From: a virus
Length of the DNA stretch: 30,336 bases
Direction: 5' to 3' (one strand)
Virus record (IMG/VR): IMGVR_UViG_3300014839_000030
Coordinates: 1 to 30,336 of that record
The notes beneath the pieces are model-generated. The model was not told where the DNA came from, ran no database searches, and was given only the letters and a program-made list of their open reading frames with translations. Shown in pieces: positions 2,166 to 26,391 of this stretch (positions are counted from its first letter, which is position 1; every line of letters starts with the position of its first letter). A program made the position numbers and the translations under genes.

Positions 2166-3739
2166 TCGGCAGCGAACCGGAAAGACCGACCCCGGCTCCT
2201 GCTCGCGTCAAGCCGCATAAGGTGCGCAGGCGAAGAGGTCCGACGGCGGTCCAGGAGGACTTGCGCAAACCTTCCCTGACGGGAGACCCCTGGCAGGGGT
2301 ATCGCCGCCTCACCCGCTCGAGCGAGAAGCGGCGCGACCTGACCCCGGTCCGATGGGACTGGCAGCAGCGGCTCGGGAACTGGCTCTGGGCCAGTCATCC
2401 GGTCTGCAAGAAGGCACTCCAGAATACCAAGAACTTCGTTTGCGGGGACGGCTTCTGGCCACAGTCCTTGTGCCAGACCAAACTGCGAGAAAAGATCCAG
2501 TCTCTCCTGGAGATGCATTGGAAAATCAACGCGTGGGGACCGGAACTGGCCCGCCGTGTTGAGACTCTGAGCGTTGAGGGCGAGTGGGTCTATTGGTGCA
2601 CGCCTCCCCACCACTCCTCAGGCCACATCGAGCTTTGCAAAATCCTGCCCGAGAACGTTGAGGAAGTGCTCCGCTGCCCGCTCAATGCCGAGCGGTTGGA
2701 CGAAGTCCATCTCAAGTTCCCTCTCGAGTTCGTTTCCTGGGGCGGGAAAGACCTGATCCAAAAGTTCAAGCTGGCGCACTGGGACTGGAAGAGCGAGCGG
2801 GTGCGTGGCGACGGCCTGATGCTCGGGGCCAACCGCCTGTCCGGGCAGACCCGCGGATGGTCCGACCTCCTAGCGATCGCCGACTACATCGACCTGTTCG
2901 ACACGGCCATTTTTACGGAGGCCGAGCGAATAGGTATCCAGCGCGCCTTCGTATGGGATGTCCTTATCAAAGGCAAGGGGGACATAGAGAACAAGGTTAC
3001 CCAGCGCCGCGAGGAACTGCAGGCCCTGGGCCCCCCTCGGCCAGGCGCGGTCAACGTGCACAGCGAGGACGAGGAATGGAGCGCCAAGTCCGTTCAGCTC
3101 TATCTCGGGGAGACCATCGAATACCTCAAGTTCATCTTGATGGTATGCCTCGGCGGAACGCACAACCCTGAGCACTGGTTCGCGCAGGGCGGCAACACAA
3201 ATAAGGCGACGGCTTCTGAAATGGGCGGCCCGGCCTTCGCCCACATTCGCGAGCGCAAGCGTGAAATCATGACGTTCATGACCTTGGAACTGGAAATGCA
3301 AATGCAGGCCTGGGTCGACTGCGGCCAGTTGCCGCGAGGGCTCGACCCCAAGGACCTGGCCTTCCAGATTTTGTCCAAAGACCCGGAGCACAACGCCTAC
3401 AACACCATCGGCGCCAACCTCCAGAGTGTAGGGCAGGGGCTGGTAATTGCGTCGAGCCAGGGATGGCTGACCCCCCAGGAATGCGCGATGGCCTACCGAG
3501 GAGCCGCCGCCGATATGGGCCTGGGCGACTTTCCCGGCGTGCCGCCGGACAAGACTTTAGAGGCGGCCCAACAGCGAGTTTCCCAGGCCTTAGACGCCAA
3601 GAAGTCCGAGTTATCGACTCAGAAACCTTTCGACATGGTAGGAGGAAACGATGGCAAAACGTTCAGCCGAGATGGATCAGGACAGCCCGGAAGCCCCGGA
3701 GGAGGAGCGAACCAGCAACCCACCGGAAACGACCCCTGA
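2099..3739 (+). CDS. portal protein
   Basis: Portal protein (546 residues) forming the dodecameric ring at the capsid vertex through which DNA enters. The order terminase-portal-capsid and the sequence pattern support the call: an N-terminal basic region, WASHPVCKKALQNTKNFV near residue 100, then a C-terminal helical half with LGGTHNPEHWFAQGGNTNKA and SEMGGPAFAHIRERKREIM, which resembles the clip/stem and wing region of SPP1/HK97-type portals. The C-terminus is low-complexity, rich in Gly, Pro, Gln and Asn. ATG 2099 lies 67 bases inside the end of the terminase gene with AAGAGC upstream. The last 89 bases overlap the next gene. Confidence 0.85.
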   Translation: MDSIERTRTILASPLGSWFRRLVGSEPERPTPAPARVKPHKVRRRRGPTAVQEDLRKPSLTGDPWQGYRRLTRSSEKRRDLTPVRWDWQQRLGNWLWASHPVCKKALQNTKNFVCGDGFWPQSLCQTKLREKIQSLLEMHWKINAWGPELARRVETLSVEGEWVYWCTPPHHSSGHIELCKILPENVEEVLRCPLNAERLDEVHLKFPLEFVSWGGKDLIQKFKLAHWDWKSERVRGDGLMLGANRLSGQTRGWSDLLAIADYIDLFDTAIFTEAERIGIQRAFVWDVLIKGKGDIENKVTQRREELQALGPPRPGAVNVHSEDEEWSAKSVQLYLGETIEYLKFILMVCLGGTHNPEHWFAQGGNTNKATASEMGGPAFAHIRERKREIMTFMTLELEMQMQAWVDCGQLPRGLDPKDLAFQILSKDPEHNAYNTIGANLQSVGQGLVIASSQGWLTPQECAMAYRGAAADMGLGDFPGVPPDKTLEAAQQRVSQALDAKKSELSTQKPFDMVGGNDGKTFSRDGSGQPGSPGGGANQQPTGNDP

Positions 3740-3986
3740 GGAGATGGATCCCGAACGCCCAGTCTTCTCCTTCCCGGTCTTTACCGAGGAGGATGATGAG
3801 CCGGCGGTGCGTCTCATTGACGGACAGACTGTGAAGGTCCCCCGTTTTTGCTGCAACGCTCTGCATCGGTGGCTGGGTGACCGCCAGTTGGCGTGTTACG
3901 CCCTCGTCAATCACGGAATCGTGCAGACGGCCAGCTTTATCTCCTACCCCGACCATCAAAGATTCGAAGTTTCCGGCCAGGCCTGA
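3651..3986 (+). CDS. hypothetical protein between portal and capsid genes
   Basis: A 111-residue protein of unknown function. The first 45 residues are acidic and Pro/Glu-rich and probably disordered. Residues about 50-111 look folded, with a cysteine pair and a WLGDRQLACYALVNHG segment. The start is well supported by AGGAGG at 3640-3645, five bases before ATG 3651, although this puts the start 89 bases inside the portal gene. Its TGA shares one base with the ATG of the capsid fusion gene (TGATG), so the two are probably translationally coupled. The position suggests a head-assembly accessory role, but nothing in the sequence proves it. Confidence 0.7.
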   Translation: MAKRSAEMDQDSPEAPEEERTSNPPETTPEEMDPERPVFSFPVFTEEDDEPAVRLIDGQTVKVPRFCCNALHRWLGDRQLACYALVNHGIVQTASFISYPDHQRFEVSGQA

Positions 3987-6475
3987 TGAGCAAACGCAAG
4001 TTCTGGATTCCCGGCTACCTGACCGAGGAAGTCTCGGCCACTGACCAGGGATCGATATGGAACGCGACGCTGATCCGGTCAGGTTGGTCTCGCAACGGGC
4101 TTTATTACCCGCGCCCGACGTTGCAGGAGGCCGCTCCTCTCTTTGAGGGGAGTCCGGTGGAGTACTATGCGGCGGGGACCCCGGTAACGCACATTCCCCG
4201 GGCAAAACGGCTGGCTGGCGTCAGTGCACCTGCCGGAAACATCGCGGGGGTCTCGGCTAACTGCGCGGCAATTGAGTCGGGCGGGCGCTTGGAGCTCCAG
4301 GCGCAGATTCATATCACCCAACAGCCGATCCGTGAGGAATTGGCTAATCATTGGAGAGTATTCCAAAAGTATGGCATCCCCATGGCCTTGGGTCTCTCCA
4401 TCGACGGAAACGCGGCGCTACGGATGGGGACCGCCGAGGGCCGGAAGGGCCTCATCGTAGACCGCATTTTTGAAATCTTGGGCACGGCGATCGTGTCACA
4501 ACCAGCAGCTGGAGGCAGATTCTCGCAGTTGGTGGCCGGATTCAGTCAAATCAAGGAGGACCATATGAAACCATTGTTAGCCTGGTTGCGCGCGAAGGGC
4601 CATACCGTAAAGTCTCAGGAGCCGGCGGAGGTCTGCCAGCAGGTCATATCTATCATTCAAGAGGACGTGGGGGACGCCAGCTGGATGCAATTGGCGCTTG
4701 ACCTGCTCAGCGCTGGAAAATTGGAGGAGGTGCAGGGGCTCTTGGAGCTGGCTATCTCCAGCCAGAACTCTTCCACCGTGATGGAAGCGGTTGCGGTCCA
4801 GGCCCCCGCGCCTTCCGCTTCCTCCACCCTCTCACGAGTTGAGGCCGACCTTGCCACCATCCGGCGCCAGGCTCAGAGGGCCACGGAAATCGCCGAGGGC
4901 GTCCAGCTTTCGAGCTCGGCCGCCGAACTGGAACGGCAACTTTCGTCCAGCGACTTGCCCGAGAAGATGGCCCGGTTCGTGCGCAAGCAGTTTGAAGGCA
5001 AGGTCTTCGAGGCGAAGGTCTTAGCGGAGGCCATCAGCGAGATTCAGGAGTCCATCGGCTCTCCTCCTCCCGCCACCGGCGTTTTGCAGGGCCGGGCCGC
5101 CGACATCCGGCTGGGGGTCGGGGAAATCGAGCGGCAGCAGGCCGGCTGGGATATCGTAATGGGTTACGATTATACCAAAGACAAAGAGAGGAAGCTCTCG
5201 GACGAGGAGAAGTCGACCTACCGGGAAATGCGCAACGCCCGCCCTGGGACGCTCTACAGCCGCTATTACGACGACGGCGACATGATGCAGAAAATCGGGC
5301 CTAACGCGATCGTCCAAGAGGCCACCAGCGCCAATTATCCGGACATCCTCAGCACCTCGATAACCCGCCGGGTGGTCCAGGTATACGATGAGGTGCCTGA
5401 CCAATCCGATGACCTGGTCACTGTCGTGGACGACATCCAGACCTTTAAAGACCAGGACCGGATCCTCTATGGCGGTTTCTCGGATGTGGCATTGGTTCCC
5501 GAATCGGACAGCCAGAACTATCCCTACCTGAAGGGGTTTGATGAAAAACAGTCGACCTACCGCCTGAACAAATACGGTGGGCTGTTCGCCATCACCTGGG
5601 AAATGATCCTGAACGATGACCTGGGCGTCTTCCGCAATCTGACGGATGAATTGGGCCGCCTCTGCCGCCACAAGAAGAAGATGTTCATCTATTCTCTGGT
5701 TACCGCATCTTCGGGCGGTGCCGTCAACACCGACCAGACCTACGATGGCCTGGCCCTCTACCACGCCAATCATGCCAACGTAGGCTCGGCCGCCTTGAGT
5801 AAGCTGTCTCTCACCGCCGCTCGGGTGGTGATTCGCAATCAGAGGCGGTTCTCGCGCTCCATCACCCTCGGCGCGGCCTATACCGCGGGCGAGACTGCCC
5901 TGACGGTTTCCGATACCACCGGTATCAATCTTGGGAACTTCATCCAAGTCGATTCCGAGTTCTTCCGGGTAACCGGGGTCACATCGGGAACCGTCTTGGC
6001 GGTCACGGGGGCGAGGATGGGCACAGCCGCGGCCAACCATGCTAACGCCGCCGTCGCCACTCTCATCGCCGATACCATCAGCGTCAACCGGTTCCATGTG
6101 GTGGTGCCCTCCGAGCAGGAGGACAATCTCTACGGGATCCTCAACAGCGAACAGATTCCCGGCACGGCCAACAATGATGCCAACCAGATGGAAGCCCTCG
6201 CCGCCAAGGGTAACCTCGTCCCTCACGTGGTGGACTCGCTCTATCTGGCCGGCGACGTCCGGAGCTGGTATTGCGTGGCTGAACCGACCCAGGTCAAGAC
6301 CTTCGAGTTCGCCTATCTGCGCGGCCAACGCAAGCCCCTGATCGGCGTCCAGGACGCCGAGCTCCTCGGCAACATGTTCATGCGCGACAACGCCACTTAC
6401 AAGGTCCGCTTCCCGCTGGGAGGCAAGGCCATCGACTGGCGTGGCGCCTATAGCAGTCAAGTGGCCGGAGGCTAA
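3986..6475 (+). CDS. fused prohead protease, scaffold and gpT-like major capsid protein
   Basis: One 829-residue frame that reads as three head-assembly parts. Residues ~1-190 look like a phage head-maturation protease: WNATLIRSGWSRNGLYYP at the start, a candidate catalytic His in PVTHIP, a candidate Ser in LGLSIDGNA, and a closing VSQPAAGGRF typical of these proteases. Residues ~194-385 are Gln/Glu/Ala-rich and helical, as expected of a scaffold or delta domain. Residues ~388-829 match the Mu gpT-like major head protein, with SANYPDILSTSITRRV, TYRLNKYGGLFAITWEMILNDD and a conserved C-terminal YKVRFPLGGKAIDWRG. Residues ~625-695 look like an extra beta domain inserted in the capsid part. ATG 3986 is chosen over GTG 3893 because it makes a TGATG junction and starts at a natural N-terminus. 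Confidence 0.85.
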   Translation: MSKRKFWIPGYLTEEVSATDQGSIWNATLIRSGWSRNGLYYPRPTLQEAAPLFEGSPVEYYAAGTPVTHIPRAKRLAGVSAPAGNIAGVSANCAAIESGGRLELQAQIHITQQPIREELANHWRVFQKYGIPMALGLSIDGNAALRMGTAEGRKGLIVDRIFEILGTAIVSQPAAGGRFSQLVAGFSQIKEDHMKPLLAWLRAKGHTVKSQEPAEVCQQVISIIQEDVGDASWMQLALDLLSAGKLEEVQGLLELAISSQNSSTVMEAVAVQAPAPSASSTLSRVEADLATIRRQAQRATEIAEGVQLSSSAAELERQLSSSDLPEKMARFVRKQFEGKVFEAKVLAEAISEIQESIGSPPPATGVLQGRAADIRLGVGEIERQQAGWDIVMGYDYTKDKERKLSDEEKSTYREMRNARPGTLYSRYYDDGDMMQKIGPNAIVQEATSANYPDILSTSITRRVVQVYDEVPDQSDDLVTVVDDIQTFKDQDRILYGGFSDVALVPESDSQNYPYLKGFDEKQSTYRLNKYGGLFAITWEMILNDDLGVFRNLTDELGRLCRHKKKMFIYSLVTASSGGAVNTDQTYDGLALYHANHANVGSAALSKLSLTAARVVIRNQRRFSRSITLGAAYTAGETALTVSDTTGINLGNFIQVDSEFFRVTGVTSGTVLAVTGARMGTAAANHANAAVATLIADTISVNRFHVVVPSEQEDNLYGILNSEQIPGTANNDANQMEALAAKGNLVPHVVDSLYLAGDVRSWYCVAEPTQVKTFEFAYLRGQRKPLIGVQDAELLGNMFMRDNATYKVRFPLGGKAIDWRGAYSSQVAGG
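4553..4567 (+). promoter_or_regulatory. internal ribosome binding site and in-frame start within the capsid fusion gene
   Basis: AAGGAGG at 4553-4559 is followed five bases later by ATG 4565-4567, in frame as codon 194 of the fusion gene, exactly after the end of the protease-like domain. It would give a 636-residue scaffold-plus-capsid protein lacking the protease. The arrangement resembles lambda C/Nu3 and Mu I/Z, where the scaffold starts inside the protease gene. It is the strongest Shine-Dalgarno in the neighbourhood, stronger than that of the upstream start, so I infer that the shorter product is the major one. Confidence 0.7.
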
Positions 6476-21176: not shown

Positions 21177-23294
21177 ATGGCGATCCCGAGCGGCGTATTC
21201 GGAGCAGGTCGGTTCGACCAAAGCGAGTTCGACACGCTCTCCACCTCCGGATGTGCCAGCTTCGTTCTGGCTCCCGCCGTAATCTCTGCGGCGGGAACGG
21301 GGCTGGCCACCGGGGCGGCCGACCTTGCACTTGCGCCGGCGACTCTGGCCGCCGAAGGGCTAGCGGAATTCCCTGGAGGGCATGCCAGTCTGCAGCCGGG
21401 GCCCGCCGCTTTGCAGGCTTCGGGGACGGTGACGGCCGTAGGATGGGCCGCCCTTACCACTGGGTCGGCCACCCAGACCAGGGGTCCCGTTCAGGTAAAC
21501 CTCCTCCACCGTCTGGCCTGCCCTCGGGCCACCCAGGCTAACCTTCTCCACCGCCTGGCCGCCTCGATGTCCTGCAGGGCCAATCTCCTCCACCGGCTTA
21601 GCAATAACCGTGTAACGGTAAATCTGCGGCATCGCTTGGCATGCGCCAATCATATCCAGGTCAATCTACTCCACCGCCTGCGGGCTGGCCCCGGCGAGAT
21701 ATCCATTCCCAAGAGCGTGTGGGGCCCTGGTCCCGATTCTAATGGAGATCCCAGTTCTACCCCCGCCTCCCCATACGAGCTCGCCTACAAACTGGGCATT
21801 GGGGACATGACCACTTCTTTTCAAATTTGGAGTGCAAGTCGCACCTGGGACCTCGGAGAGGCTCCCGCGATCCTACAGGTCACGCATAATGAGTCCGCCC
21901 CTCTTCGCTGGCAAATTTATGTGGACGACCCAGAAGGGAAATACCATCCGCGCAAATCAGGCGGCGAATTCGCCGGCGCGATGGACAACCGAGCCTATGA
22001 TTCCGCCGGGGGCTTCGCAAAAAAATTCCTGGCGACCGTCTATTGGGGCGGTTCCCCATATCATTTGATTGGCATCCCTAACCAGATTGCATCCGAGCGC
22101 AACAATGGATCAGGAGGCAGGTTCCGCCTCACCTGGGGCGGTATCGATTGCACCGAGGGTTTCTTCCGCCGCGCCAACACCGCCAAGACCCTGAGGACCG
22201 TCCGGGGTGGAACCACCTGGTTCAATGTCGATGCCTTGCGCGACATTTGCGAGCAACTCAACGTTTCATGCGACTTTCGCATACGGCGGGAGAAGATCCG
22301 GGTCCAGCATCGCCAGAATGGGCGATGGGGGGACTGGTTTCAGTCATTGCTCGATGCCACCCGCGCCAAGTGGCGCTCCGAAGGAGAGCGCATAGTCGCA
22401 TATCAACCCACCCTTACTGGCCCGGCCCTCTGGAACTACGATTCTAAGGCCCTCATTCTCGAGGAGAATTTAGACGCCCCAACCCCGGATATCGTGAACA
22501 AAGTGACCGCCAGGCGCGCGAACGAAGGGGGCGGCTCCAGAGCTGAAGTCAACCTCCTCAAATTTGGCTCAGGCTATAAAGCCGTGTTCAATCCGCCCAT
22601 CGACAACCCGCAGTTCAAGGTGTCGGGCGGCAACCTGGCCGCGGTTTCAAATGTCGTCTATCGCGACCCATCGGGAGCCATCGTAGGGGTGAGCAACTGG
22701 CGTACCGATGGCATGGGGACCGCCGCGAATATCGGGACGGTGGCTGCCCAGGACCCAATGGGTAGAGCATATGGGAACGGTGGGCAAGCCAAGAACGTGA
22801 ACTCCGCAGAGTTCACGTGGGGCATCACCGTCGCAGGGTTCCCCACCATTCTAGAATCCGCCGGTAACGTTACCTTCTTTGCCGCCCCCAGCGACCCCAC
22901 CTCTGACCCCGTCTTGGAATTGACCGGGAAAGCTCCCGCTTCTATCGGAGGCGGGAATCTCGGATGGGGAGAGAAGGCTCTGGAACTCCCCCCAAATCCG
23001 CTGTTTTACGACTCCGCGCAACTCAAACGCTATCTTTATGATTACCTGCTTGAATTTGCTTTCGATACGCTTCCCACGACCTACAAAGTATTTTTGAACC
23101 ATGAAATGAGACCAGGGGACCTAGTGGCTATCCACGACGATCGGTTGGGCCTGGTCGACGTTCGCTATGTCTACCAGTGCACTCACTCTTTTTCCGACTT
23201 CCCAGAGCAGCGCTTCACGCGAATGTCCACGCGGCTTTACCCGACAGAAATCATGGTGGAGTATTCCGATGGATCAACATCAGTTCGGTCATGA
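21177..23294 (+). CDS. tail hub-like protein with N-terminal repeats
   Basis: A 705-residue protein. Residues ~25-95 hold about three loose ~21-25-residue units of the form 'A.L.LAPATL.A.G'. Residues ~108-168 hold five 14-residue repeats with core NLLHRL. The remainder (residues ~200-705) looks like a baseplate hub or tail-associated protein: RTWDLGEAPAILQVTHNES, then VYWGGSPYHLIGIPNQIASE, RLTWGGIDCTEGFF, DIVNKVTARRANEGGG and a C-terminal PGDLVAIHDDRLGLVDVRYV, which fits the beta domains of gp27-like hubs where the surface is rotated or tilted. The start ATG 21177 has GGAAGG upstream. Confidence 0.55.
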   Translation: MAIPSGVFGAGRFDQSEFDTLSTSGCASFVLAPAVISAAGTGLATGAADLALAPATLAAEGLAEFPGGHASLQPGPAALQASGTVTAVGWAALTTGSATQTRGPVQVNLLHRLACPRATQANLLHRLAASMSCRANLLHRLSNNRVTVNLRHRLACANHIQVNLLHRLRAGPGEISIPKSVWGPGPDSNGDPSSTPASPYELAYKLGIGDMTTSFQIWSASRTWDLGEAPAILQVTHNESAPLRWQIYVDDPEGKYHPRKSGGEFAGAMDNRAYDSAGGFAKKFLATVYWGGSPYHLIGIPNQIASERNNGSGGRFRLTWGGIDCTEGFFRRANTAKTLRTVRGGTTWFNVDALRDICEQLNVSCDFRIRREKIRVQHRQNGRWGDWFQSLLDATRAKWRSEGERIVAYQPTLTGPALWNYDSKALILEENLDAPTPDIVNKVTARRANEGGGSRAEVNLLKFGSGYKAVFNPPIDNPQFKVSGGNLAAVSNVVYRDPSGAIVGVSNWRTDGMGTAANIGTVAAQDPMGRAYGNGGQAKNVNSAEFTWGITVAGFPTILESAGNVTFFAAPSDPTSDPVLELTGKAPASIGGGNLGWGEKALELPPNPLFYDSAQLKRYLYDYLLEFAFDTLPTTYKVFLNHEMRPGDLVAIHDDRLGLVDVRYVYQCTHSFSDFPEQRFTRMSTRLYPTEIMVEYSDGSTSVRS
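21498..21680 (+). repeat. five tandem NLLHRL-coding repeats
   Basis: Five units of about 42 bases, each coding for NLLHRL (one is NLRHRL) followed by seven or eight variable residues. The DNA of the units differs at most third positions, so the motif is kept by protein-level selection and is not a fresh DNA duplication. Confidence 0.85.
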
Positions 23295-23511
23295 ATTCGA
23301 GCGCCTCCCGAAATTCGAGGGCAGCGTCGTGTCATCCATCAACCGAGATGGCACTCCCAATCTCAACAGCTATAACCGCTCTGACGACAGGACTGAAGTG
23401 GGGCTGGCTTCCTCTCTCACGCCCCTGCCGGGAGACAGGCTGTTAACAGTGGCTGGTGGAGATAACGAGATCCCCAAAGCGATCGGCTGGGACCCTTGGA
23501 TAACCCAATAA
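23269..23511 (+). CDS. small hypothetical tail-region protein
   Basis: An 80-residue protein. ATG 23269 has GGAG 7 bases upstream and is preferred to an earlier ATG at 23167, because that extension only reads the preceding gene out of frame. It overlaps the end of the preceding gene by 26 bases, and its stop is followed directly by the next start. The sequence is polar (MDQHQFGHEFERLPKFEGSV, SYNRSDDRTEVGLASS), with a hydrophobic LTPLPGDRLLTVAG segment. Function unknown. Confidence 0.55.
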   Translation: MDQHQFGHEFERLPKFEGSVVSSINRDGTPNLNSYNRSDDRTEVGLASSLTPLPGDRLLTVAGGDNEIPKAIGWDPWITQ

Positions 23512-26391
23512 ATGCGCCCTCTAGCTCTTGTCGTTGACCATGAGGCCTGGGCCAAGGCGCGGCGCGCAGACACCGAGCCGGCTTTGCGTTTTCACGGCGA
23601 GCTCATCACGCGTGTGGATCATGCGGTTATCACGGCCGATTTGGGAGACGGAACGTATAAAGTCCAATGCGGCAACCGAGCTTTCCCTTATGATTCGGTG
23701 GCCCCCATAGACCCACTTTCACGCTTTTCAGTGGGCGATCCCGTCTTGATTGGGTTTAAAGCGAATCAGCCTGGTCTGCCGGTCATCATTTCCCCCGGGC
23801 ACAAGGTCATTCAGGGCAGTCCGGATGCTTCCCCGGCGGAACTGCTAGACGGCCTCTGGGTACAAGGCGCGGCGGACGAGGCTGCCGACTTCTCGAATTT
23901 TTCCTATTGGAAGTCGGGCGGGAAGTGGATTCCATACTCGTCCGGCGGGAGTCAACCCCAGGTGATTTCCGGAAGCGGACTATTTCAGCCCACCGGGGAA
24001 CAGCCAAATGGAGTCATCGTATTCCACGCCGCGGACAAATCTGTATTTGCGGCATGGTTGACCCGAGAGCGCATAGAGGGTGATAGCGCACACAGCACTT
24101 TAACCCTTCAACTGTTGCCAAATCTAGTCTGGACTCATACGAATATCGCCGTGGACGTCGTTTCCACGAAGGCCAGCGATGACTCTGGCCTAAATTGCGG
24201 TTTCCTTTTCGCAGACAGGTCCAGTGGCTATGTATGGGTCCTGAATGACACCACGGTCTACATCGTGGACCCTCTGGCGCAGCTGGTGCTCTGCAAAGCC
24301 AACCTTGGCTACTCGCTCCATCAATGCTCGGTCGGCTTCGGATATCTAGCCAAAATGTCGCAGGTTCCCTCGGGCCGAGATCCCGCGGCCTACCCCAACG
24401 ACAGGAGCCAGCAAGACAACCTCTGGAGATTTTGGAAGTATGATGCTCTTAACCAAAACGGACCCACTCTGAAGGCCCTTGCGGCGCTCGACCCGCAGAC
24501 TCTGCTCCCCGACTATCAATTGGCCTACACGCAGGCCCGCCGCGCGGATCTCTATCTCGGAGACGCAGAGGAGGGCAGGTGTCCAATAATCGCTTCCACG
24601 ACCGATCCCCGAGTGGTAACCTGGCTAAGCGGATGGGAAATCCCCACAGGAAACCTGAGGGATCGCTGGATGAATCTGGGATTCGGAGAGGGTGCTTATG
24701 CGATATCGCAAGCATCTTTGACTTCTCGACCCCCAGATTTGACGGGGGGACATCGGGTAAATGATGCCCTGATAGCGTGGGTTAGCCTGTCGGACCCAAG
24801 CAAATATGACATCACAAGACTCCCAACAAACACCCCGTCTCCGGTGCGCGATAATGCTTCCATTGATGCCTATCGGAACTGGTATGCTGGGATGTCTTAT
24901 TCAGACCTAACAACCGAAATAGGCCTAAATAGTGCTAGTGGGGTAGTGGGTCAATCGAGGGTCATAACGGATACCTCTGACGTTTTTACTCCAGGGACGC
25001 GTACCGACTCCTCACAAAATAATACTTTTGCTGGCATTGCTGAGGATGGAGCCCTAAACTTGGGGGTGACATATAGTATAGTTCCGGGAGGAATTCATTC
25101 TTATGGAGTTGATTCAGAGGGAGTCCCCTTTGACAATATTGAGGTAAACGCCGTAAGGGAAATGACATATCCTGCAATAGCTACTCCTGACAGTTTACTC
25201 GCTACTACAGCTCTAACCGCTGTCGATGGAGTATGGCATACAGTAGCGCTTCGGTATCCCGATTATTATAATTTTATCGGCGGCCACCAAATGCTACTTC
25301 CTAATTCCCAGGCAGATCCAACGGGAGAAACCAGCGGGGATGAAAATAATTTGGTTATCTGGCCAGTCAATGCCTCTGATGCTTTCCTGTGCGCCGATCC
25401 TATTGACGGGATTGCAGTCGATAGTAAAGGGACTGCCTGGGCTGCTTACATGGAGCCTTGGGTCTCCCTAGAAGGCGATGGGGACCTGATTGGTGTCGTT
25501 CAGGGAGTCTGGGATTACGACACAGCAACCTATTTGTCAACCGCTGGTGGCGGAACATACCATGAAGACGTAACTCTCCGTTCGCCTTTCTATAGTATCT
25601 ATCAATGCCTACGCCCGAGGCAATATGGGCACACTTGGTTAACCTCTGTAACTCGACCCAAGAAGGATCCTGTCACAGGGATAGTAACGCCCGGAGAAAC
25701 AACCCGAATGGATATCAGCAACTATTTGGATCACTTTTCGCCGGCCCCAGGTGGCACGGTGCGGTCGAGCCTGCAAAAAGCGCCCCTCGATAGCACGCTA
25801 TGGAAACCAATCCTGATCGAGTTCGACGGCTCATCCGCAGGACTGACAAATTTGAACCTCGTGTTACTGATCCGCAAAATGCGCGATGCCCTGTACCCCG
25901 GCGACTTGGGGACCGAGAATCAGGCCTATGTCAGTGTAGAGGTCCGATCCATGGATGATCTGTCATCGCTGCAAGTCATCAAAATGCCCCAAAACCTGGC
26001 CACCGTGGCCCTGGCTGCAGACGAAGAGCATGACGTCCCCGCTTCCACCGTCCGGAAGTGGGACTTCTTCCAGGGCTATCCGGTCCTGGTCAAATCCTCG
26101 GCTGACTCCAGCGGGTCAGGGCTACCAGTCCTAAATATCTTTTTGAAGGGCATCCAGAACCTTCCCGACCGGACCACCGTCGAAGTGCACAGGCTCTGGC
26201 AGTTCTGCTGGGATGGCATCGACCCATTACCGACGGCCAGCATCACCGATTACCCGGCGGACGGAAACCATCCCGCCGAATTCGAAGAAATTGGCTCGGT
26301 CGCTTTTTATGGCTCCAGTATGCTTTGGTCCTCGAAAACCGGCACCCCTTGGGGATATCCATTCGGGCTCATGCGCCAAGAATTGGCCTAA
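23512..26391 (+). CDS. large tail protein with baseplate-like N-terminal domain
   Basis: A 959-residue protein. Residues ~25-95 have a compact beta pattern (GELITRVDHAVITADLGDGT, VAPIDPLSRFSVGDPVLIGF, then GLPVIISPGHK) like the OB-fold domain of tail-spike or baseplate proteins. The long middle is beta-rich and Trp/Tyr/Asp-rich, with stretches such as GFLFADRSSGYVWVLNDTTV and DGIAVDSKGTAWAAYMEPW that suggest propeller-like blades. Bases ~24,640-25,700 (residues ~377-730) are clearly lower in GC and use more A/T-ending codons, as though this part had a different source. The gene ends the late region, and a truncated minus-strand recombinase frame overlaps its last 165 bases. A receptor-binding or tail-tip role is inferred. 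Confidence 0.55.
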   Translation: MRPLALVVDHEAWAKARRADTEPALRFHGELITRVDHAVITADLGDGTYKVQCGNRAFPYDSVAPIDPLSRFSVGDPVLIGFKANQPGLPVIISPGHKVIQGSPDASPAELLDGLWVQGAADEAADFSNFSYWKSGGKWIPYSSGGSQPQVISGSGLFQPTGEQPNGVIVFHAADKSVFAAWLTRERIEGDSAHSTLTLQLLPNLVWTHTNIAVDVVSTKASDDSGLNCGFLFADRSSGYVWVLNDTTVYIVDPLAQLVLCKANLGYSLHQCSVGFGYLAKMSQVPSGRDPAAYPNDRSQQDNLWRFWKYDALNQNGPTLKALAALDPQTLLPDYQLAYTQARRADLYLGDAEEGRCPIIASTTDPRVVTWLSGWEIPTGNLRDRWMNLGFGEGAYAISQASLTSRPPDLTGGHRVNDALIAWVSLSDPSKYDITRLPTNTPSPVRDNASIDAYRNWYAGMSYSDLTTEIGLNSASGVVGQSRVITDTSDVFTPGTRTDSSQNNTFAGIAEDGALNLGVTYSIVPGGIHSYGVDSEGVPFDNIEVNAVREMTYPAIATPDSLLATTALTAVDGVWHTVALRYPDYYNFIGGHQMLLPNSQADPTGETSGDENNLVIWPVNASDAFLCADPIDGIAVDSKGTAWAAYMEPWVSLEGDGDLIGVVQGVWDYDTATYLSTAGGGTYHEDVTLRSPFYSIYQCLRPRQYGHTWLTSVTRPKKDPVTGIVTPGETTRMDISNYLDHFSPAPGGTVRSSLQKAPLDSTLWKPILIEFDGSSAGLTNLNLVLLIRKMRDALYPGDLGTENQAYVSVEVRSMDDLSSLQVIKMPQNLATVALAADEEHDVPASTVRKWDFFQGYPVLVKSSADSSGSGLPVLNIFLKGIQNLPDRTTVEVHRLWQFCWDGIDPLPTASITDYPADGNHPAEFEEIGSVAFYGSSMLWSSKTGTPWGYPFGLMRQELA

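Follow-up and report, generated by a model that had tools for sequence, protein, structure and literature searches.

Phages lambda (C/Nu3) and Mu (I/Z) carry an in-frame start codon inside the protease-scaffold gene, from which a protease-free product is made. In both, the nested product comprises nothing but scaffold, and the capsid protein has its own gene. Herpesviruses likewise nest the scaffold with the protease, though the capsid protein is not part of that arrangement. In HK97 and D3, the scaffold (delta domain) is fused one to one to the N terminus of the capsid protein, and the protease is a separate gene (PMC10275583, PMC12749128). HK97 proheads contain about 60 proteases per 415 capsid subunits (PMC12749128). 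Genes joining these parts have also been described. In MD8, protease, scaffold and capsid protein come from a single gene, for which no internal start is mentioned (PMC8508860), and a 'tripartite capsid gene' of Gifsy-2 is named in the title of a work (Effantin 2010) cited in PMC8814770. A protease-capsid fusion was reported for Arthrobacter phages and RRH1 (PMC5513430). BPP-1, another possible precedent, was set aside because it has a 36-kDa capsid protein that is separate and uncleaved.

Genomic context and reading frame

The window, i.e. the whole stretch of DNA that was analysed, is a complete viral record of 30,336 bases. Its genes are arranged in the usual order: terminase small and large subunits, portal, fused capsid gene, neck, tail tube, tape measure and endolysin. 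Neither of two large ORFs (705 and 959 aa) located at 21177–26391, in the late region, matched a PHROG.

The fused gene occupies positions 3986–6475 of the plus strand, on which all of its features described below are located. It forms an uninterrupted ORF of 829 aa (90.3 kDa calculated) when read from the ATG at 3986, and the stop-to-stop frame spans 864 codons. The original prediction placed a protease-like, a scaffold-like and a capsid part in this single frame, and both the ORF and the same fusion in relatives bore it out.

The start codon of this long form (protease-scaffold-capsid) and the stop codon of an upstream ORF (3651–3986) share the sequence TGATG at 3984–3988. Because of this overlap and the weak Shine-Dalgarno sequence (−3.8 kcal/mol), the long form is probably initiated through translational coupling to the upstream ORF. 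The upstream ORF (111 aa), directly 5′ of the long form, has a strong Shine-Dalgarno sequence of its own (−10.2 kcal/mol) and no PHROG match. It is a candidate for setting long-form synthesis through coupling.

Distribution of the fusion

A single-protein search of viral contigs yielded no relatives, and an alignment was needed as the query. With the alignment, at least 566 relatives were detected in viral contigs, and a scan of genomes gave at least 476. The single-frame fusion was present in nearly all viral loci kept and in 80 of 80 genomic (prophage) loci. Since the relatives share the fused frame, a stop codon hidden by a sequencing error was ruled out, as was the possibility that related phages always have separate genes. 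Separate genes do occur: in the archaeal Methanoculleus virus L4768 (L005:1349–4011), the related capsid part is a gene of its own, located 3′ of two smaller genes. This gene is possibly an unfused counterpart.

The fusion had been thought unusual, a view that did not hold given Gifsy-2, MD8, many actinophages and two NCBIfam models. These models, NF045541 and NF045540 (prohead protease/major capsid protein fusion), and PHROG 4523 have the same architecture as the window gene. The window protein matched NF045541 with an E-value of 7.5e-49 (166.9 bits, cut-off 525) and NF045540 with an E-value of 9e-32 (111 bits, cut-off 475), most of the matched region falling within scaffold and capsid. It is thus a divergent relative of NF045541, below the curated cut-off and not filed as a member.

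Protease domain

The AlphaFold model of residues 1–193 (3986–4564), built with 25 relatives, had a pLDDT of 81. Its best structural match was T4 gp21 (5jbl_C; Z 9.5, 129 residues, rmsd 3.4), and the next 23 matches listed were mostly herpesvirus proteases (Z up to 7.9). This likeness was visible only in structural re-alignment: Foldseek alone gave no significant match for the protease model, and a profile search of the domain against PDB sequences gave no match. The PHROG family of head maturation proteases, phrog_15531, was matched by 24 of the 26 aligned relatives, but not by the window protein itself. On the basis of the model, the domain is assigned a T4-gp21/herpes-type protease fold; this predicted fold is shared with T4 gp21 and herpesvirus assemblin at approximately 15% identity. 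The predicted protease-like N terminus was thereby supported. Neither the window protein nor its 25 aligned relatives matched Pfam S78 (PF04586) at the gathering score. PF04586 was matched by the RcKemmy, Paracoccus and CapnMurica fusions.

His69 and Ser138 (in GLSID) were invariant across the 26 sequences and are the putative catalytic residues. Asp168, in an SVD motif, was present in >90% of relatives. The window differs from its own protease family at this near-invariant position and has Ala (codon 168, 4487–4489). The protease of this phage may therefore be impaired, or have a substitute for its third catalytic residue.

Scaffold-like segment and capsid domain

The full-length model was of modest confidence (pLDDT 66), and the domain borders are therefore approximate. 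In this model, residues 194 to approximately 360 were helical, with a long helix at 285–321. The segment between protease and capsid domain (4565–5305) would act as the scaffold. Residues from approximately 445 to 829 (5318–6472) matched encapsulins and phage capsids of the HK97 fold in structure comparison (Z 12–14), and Pfam Phage_capsid_4 was matched with 104 bits (cut-off 27). A capsid protein of the Mu gpT type starting at residue 388 had been proposed. The capsid assignment stood; the gpT-like family (PF10124) remained below its gathering score (16.7 vs 20.1 bits), and the border between helical segment and capsid domain was closer to residue 440.

The capsid domain contains an insertion of approximately 70 residues (5864–6076), which the closest cultured relative lacked; the Microcystis phage protein and other aligned fusions did not have it. 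It weakly resembled segments of tail, tail-fibre and virion structural proteins and is possibly a surface decoration.

Internal start codon in the window

An ATG at codon 194 (4565–4567) directly follows residues 1–193 and is preceded, with a spacing of five bases, by the Shine-Dalgarno sequence AAGGAGG (4553–4559). An in-frame AAGGAGG-N5-ATG exactly at the protease/scaffold boundary, as predicted, is therefore present. The complete motif (4553–4567) occurred once in the 30.3-kb window on both strands combined, against 0.07 expected from dinucleotide shuffles. Its Shine-Dalgarno sequence (−11.4 kcal/mol) was far stronger than that of the long form; among the 29 candidate sites for which the window was scored, only that of the tail tube gene (−13.4 kcal/mol) exceeded it. 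The predicted short form (4565–6475), consisting of scaffold-like segment and capsid protein, has 636 aa (69.5 kDa calculated).

Conservation of the internal start in relatives

The main set for comparison consisted of 47 non-redundant fused genes (<80% identical), in which the end of the protease domain was anchored by alignment. A site qualified if an in-frame start codon with a Shine-Dalgarno core 4–11 bases upstream was located ≤70 codons past the anchor. A qualifying start was found after the protease end in 44 of the 47 genes, whereas control intervals within these genes gave an expectation of 8.6; the sequences are related by ancestry, and such site counts are not independent events. 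When only ATG was allowed, 39 genes retained a site (3.5 expected from control intervals). The core preceded 30 of 47 ATGs located 10–29 codons past the anchor, and 35 of 575 ATGs elsewhere. In a held-out set of prophages, drawn later from bacterial genomes and analysed with the same rule and a motif anchor, 16 of 17 representatives (<70% identical) had a qualifying start (2.9 expected).

In some relatives, the start codon was GTG or TTG instead of ATG. The residue at these sites is Val or Leu, so that the codon would still serve as a start although methionine has been lost from the protein sequence. The GGA of the core was found in all three codon phases, chiefly in one (34, 8 and 2 genes). 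At the scaffold/capsid junction, a start was detected in 5 of 46 genes, not above background, and the scaffold would thus remain attached to the capsid part in every translation product.

The site was also found in fusions with other proteases or capsid families. Among actinophage fusions of other capsid families, RRH1, GMA5, Coeur, Schiebs and BlueFeather had a clear border site and Whytu, Noely and CapnMurica a weaker one. The protease-capsid fusion of Gordonia phage SallySpecial (L095:553–2460) had no internal ATG at the border. No qualifying site was detected in L031, L038, L039 and L103, although L031 had a GTG site further downstream. Few fusions with ClpP-type proteases were examined, and those of Gifsy-2, D14L and mEp043 had a weaker site with a spacing of 9–10; in Gifsy-2 this was AGGAG-N9-ATG at codon 221, directly after its protease. 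The retention of the start in fused genes supports the original prediction that a nested start would feed scaffold and capsid together.

Discussion

We propose that the gene has two products made from two ribosome binding sites, an abundant 636-aa scaffold-capsid protein and a scarce 829-aa protease-scaffold-capsid protein, and consider this highly probable. The weak, probably coupled upstream start would give the 829-aa form, in which the protease is joined to scaffold and capsid, and the strong internal site at codon 194 would give the 636-aa form without protease. Through their common scaffold and capsid parts, the two forms would co-assemble into a procapsid of mostly short and few long subunits. 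The protease, incorporated in a suitable copy number in this way, would next excise both itself and the scaffold, and the capsid domain would be left. The analysis shows the open frame, the domains, the nested start and its conservation; that both forms are made, in which ratio, and that they co-assemble and are cleaved is inferred. That the long form is expected to be scarce follows from the ratio of proteases to capsid subunits in HK97.

The main alternative is a gene from which only the long form is made, with protease, scaffold and capsid in a one-to-one ratio. Cutting before or after assembly would then yield the capsid protein, and the Shine-Dalgarno-like stretch would be a by-product of a Lys/Glu-rich linker between the domains. 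Linker amino acids by themselves do often yield such a sequence: in a synonymous-codon shuffle, in which the linker amino acids favoured the motif, the boundary sites were not separated from chance (combined p 0.06). Since the signal lies largely in K/Q-E amino acids just before the Met, this shuffle neither supports nor refutes a start, and control windows, an ATG-by-ATG comparison, and codon-phase and in-frame tests were used instead. In every record examined, moreover, the fused gene is annotated as a single product. However, a correctly spaced in-frame start was found far above the level of the control windows, its codon can be GTG or TTG, the core is found in more than one codon phase, and the same site is found in unrelated fusions. 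The weak long-form start in the window also argues against the long form as sole product. We therefore regard exclusive synthesis of the long form as unlikely, and the comparison with relatives makes an accidental origin of the boundary start very unlikely.

The internal start could also be used while there is little translation of the upstream frame or the protease is inactive, the long form being minor or vestigial in this phage. Such a state would be consistent with the weak long-form start and with Ala in place of the near-invariant Asp168. Still, His69, Ser138, the protease fold and the open frame have all been kept, and the third residue of the triad differs between families of herpes-type proteases. 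A vestigial long form appears a little less likely again than a gene without a short product. In a further reading, ribosomes would pause on the Shine-Dalgarno-like sequence, giving the protease time to fold ahead of scaffold synthesis, and would not initiate there. This would fit the location of the site at a domain border and the density of strong cores there (2.46 vs 0.85 per 100 codons elsewhere), but is very improbable. Pausing alone would not require an in-frame start codon, yet such a codon followed 4–12 bases after 49% of strong cores at the border compared to 13% elsewhere, with no enrichment of out-of-frame starts (4% vs 10%).

The two-product gene would combine features of several described systems. 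In Gifsy-2 and MD8, as in the window, a single frame encodes a protease, a scaffold-like region and a capsid protein of the HK97 fold, but their protease is ClpP-type whereas that of the window is of the T4-gp21/herpes type. With lambda C/Nu3 and Mu I/Z, the window gene shares an in-frame nested start at the protease/scaffold border, led by a Shine-Dalgarno sequence in the window. Its mode of action would resemble that of C/Nu3, yet it does not belong to this type: its capsid domain lies in the same frame, and the nested product is predicted to comprise scaffold and capsid rather than the scaffold alone. The predicted short form has the same layout as the capsid proteins of HK97 and D3, in which, unlike in the window, the protease is encoded by a gene of its own. 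The shell would thus follow the logic of HK97, with scaffold fused to capsid one to one, and the protease dose would be set as in lambda C/Nu3, by a nested start.

The fusion itself is already known and common; the nested start as a near-constant feature of it may be new. No report of a nested start in fused genes was found in the literature searched, which did not extend to the main Gifsy-2 study (Effantin 2010), and its novelty is accordingly provisional. It is fairly likely that fused protease-scaffold-capsid genes in general give rise, from a nested start, to a second capsid product that lacks the protease, a property unannotated so far, which has been kept or reinvented across proteases (ClpP, S78 and gp21/herpes type) and capsid families and sets the protease copies per procapsid.

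If both products are made, the protease-dose problem would be solved by translation alone, with one gene and two starts whose ribosome binding sites set the ratio. The capsid protein in use by hundreds of such phages would then start 170–300 codons past the annotated start, with consequences for structural studies, for searches of mass-spectrometry data and for models of protein families. The number of proteases needed per procapsid would also become a testable quantity, tunable via a single Shine-Dalgarno sequence.
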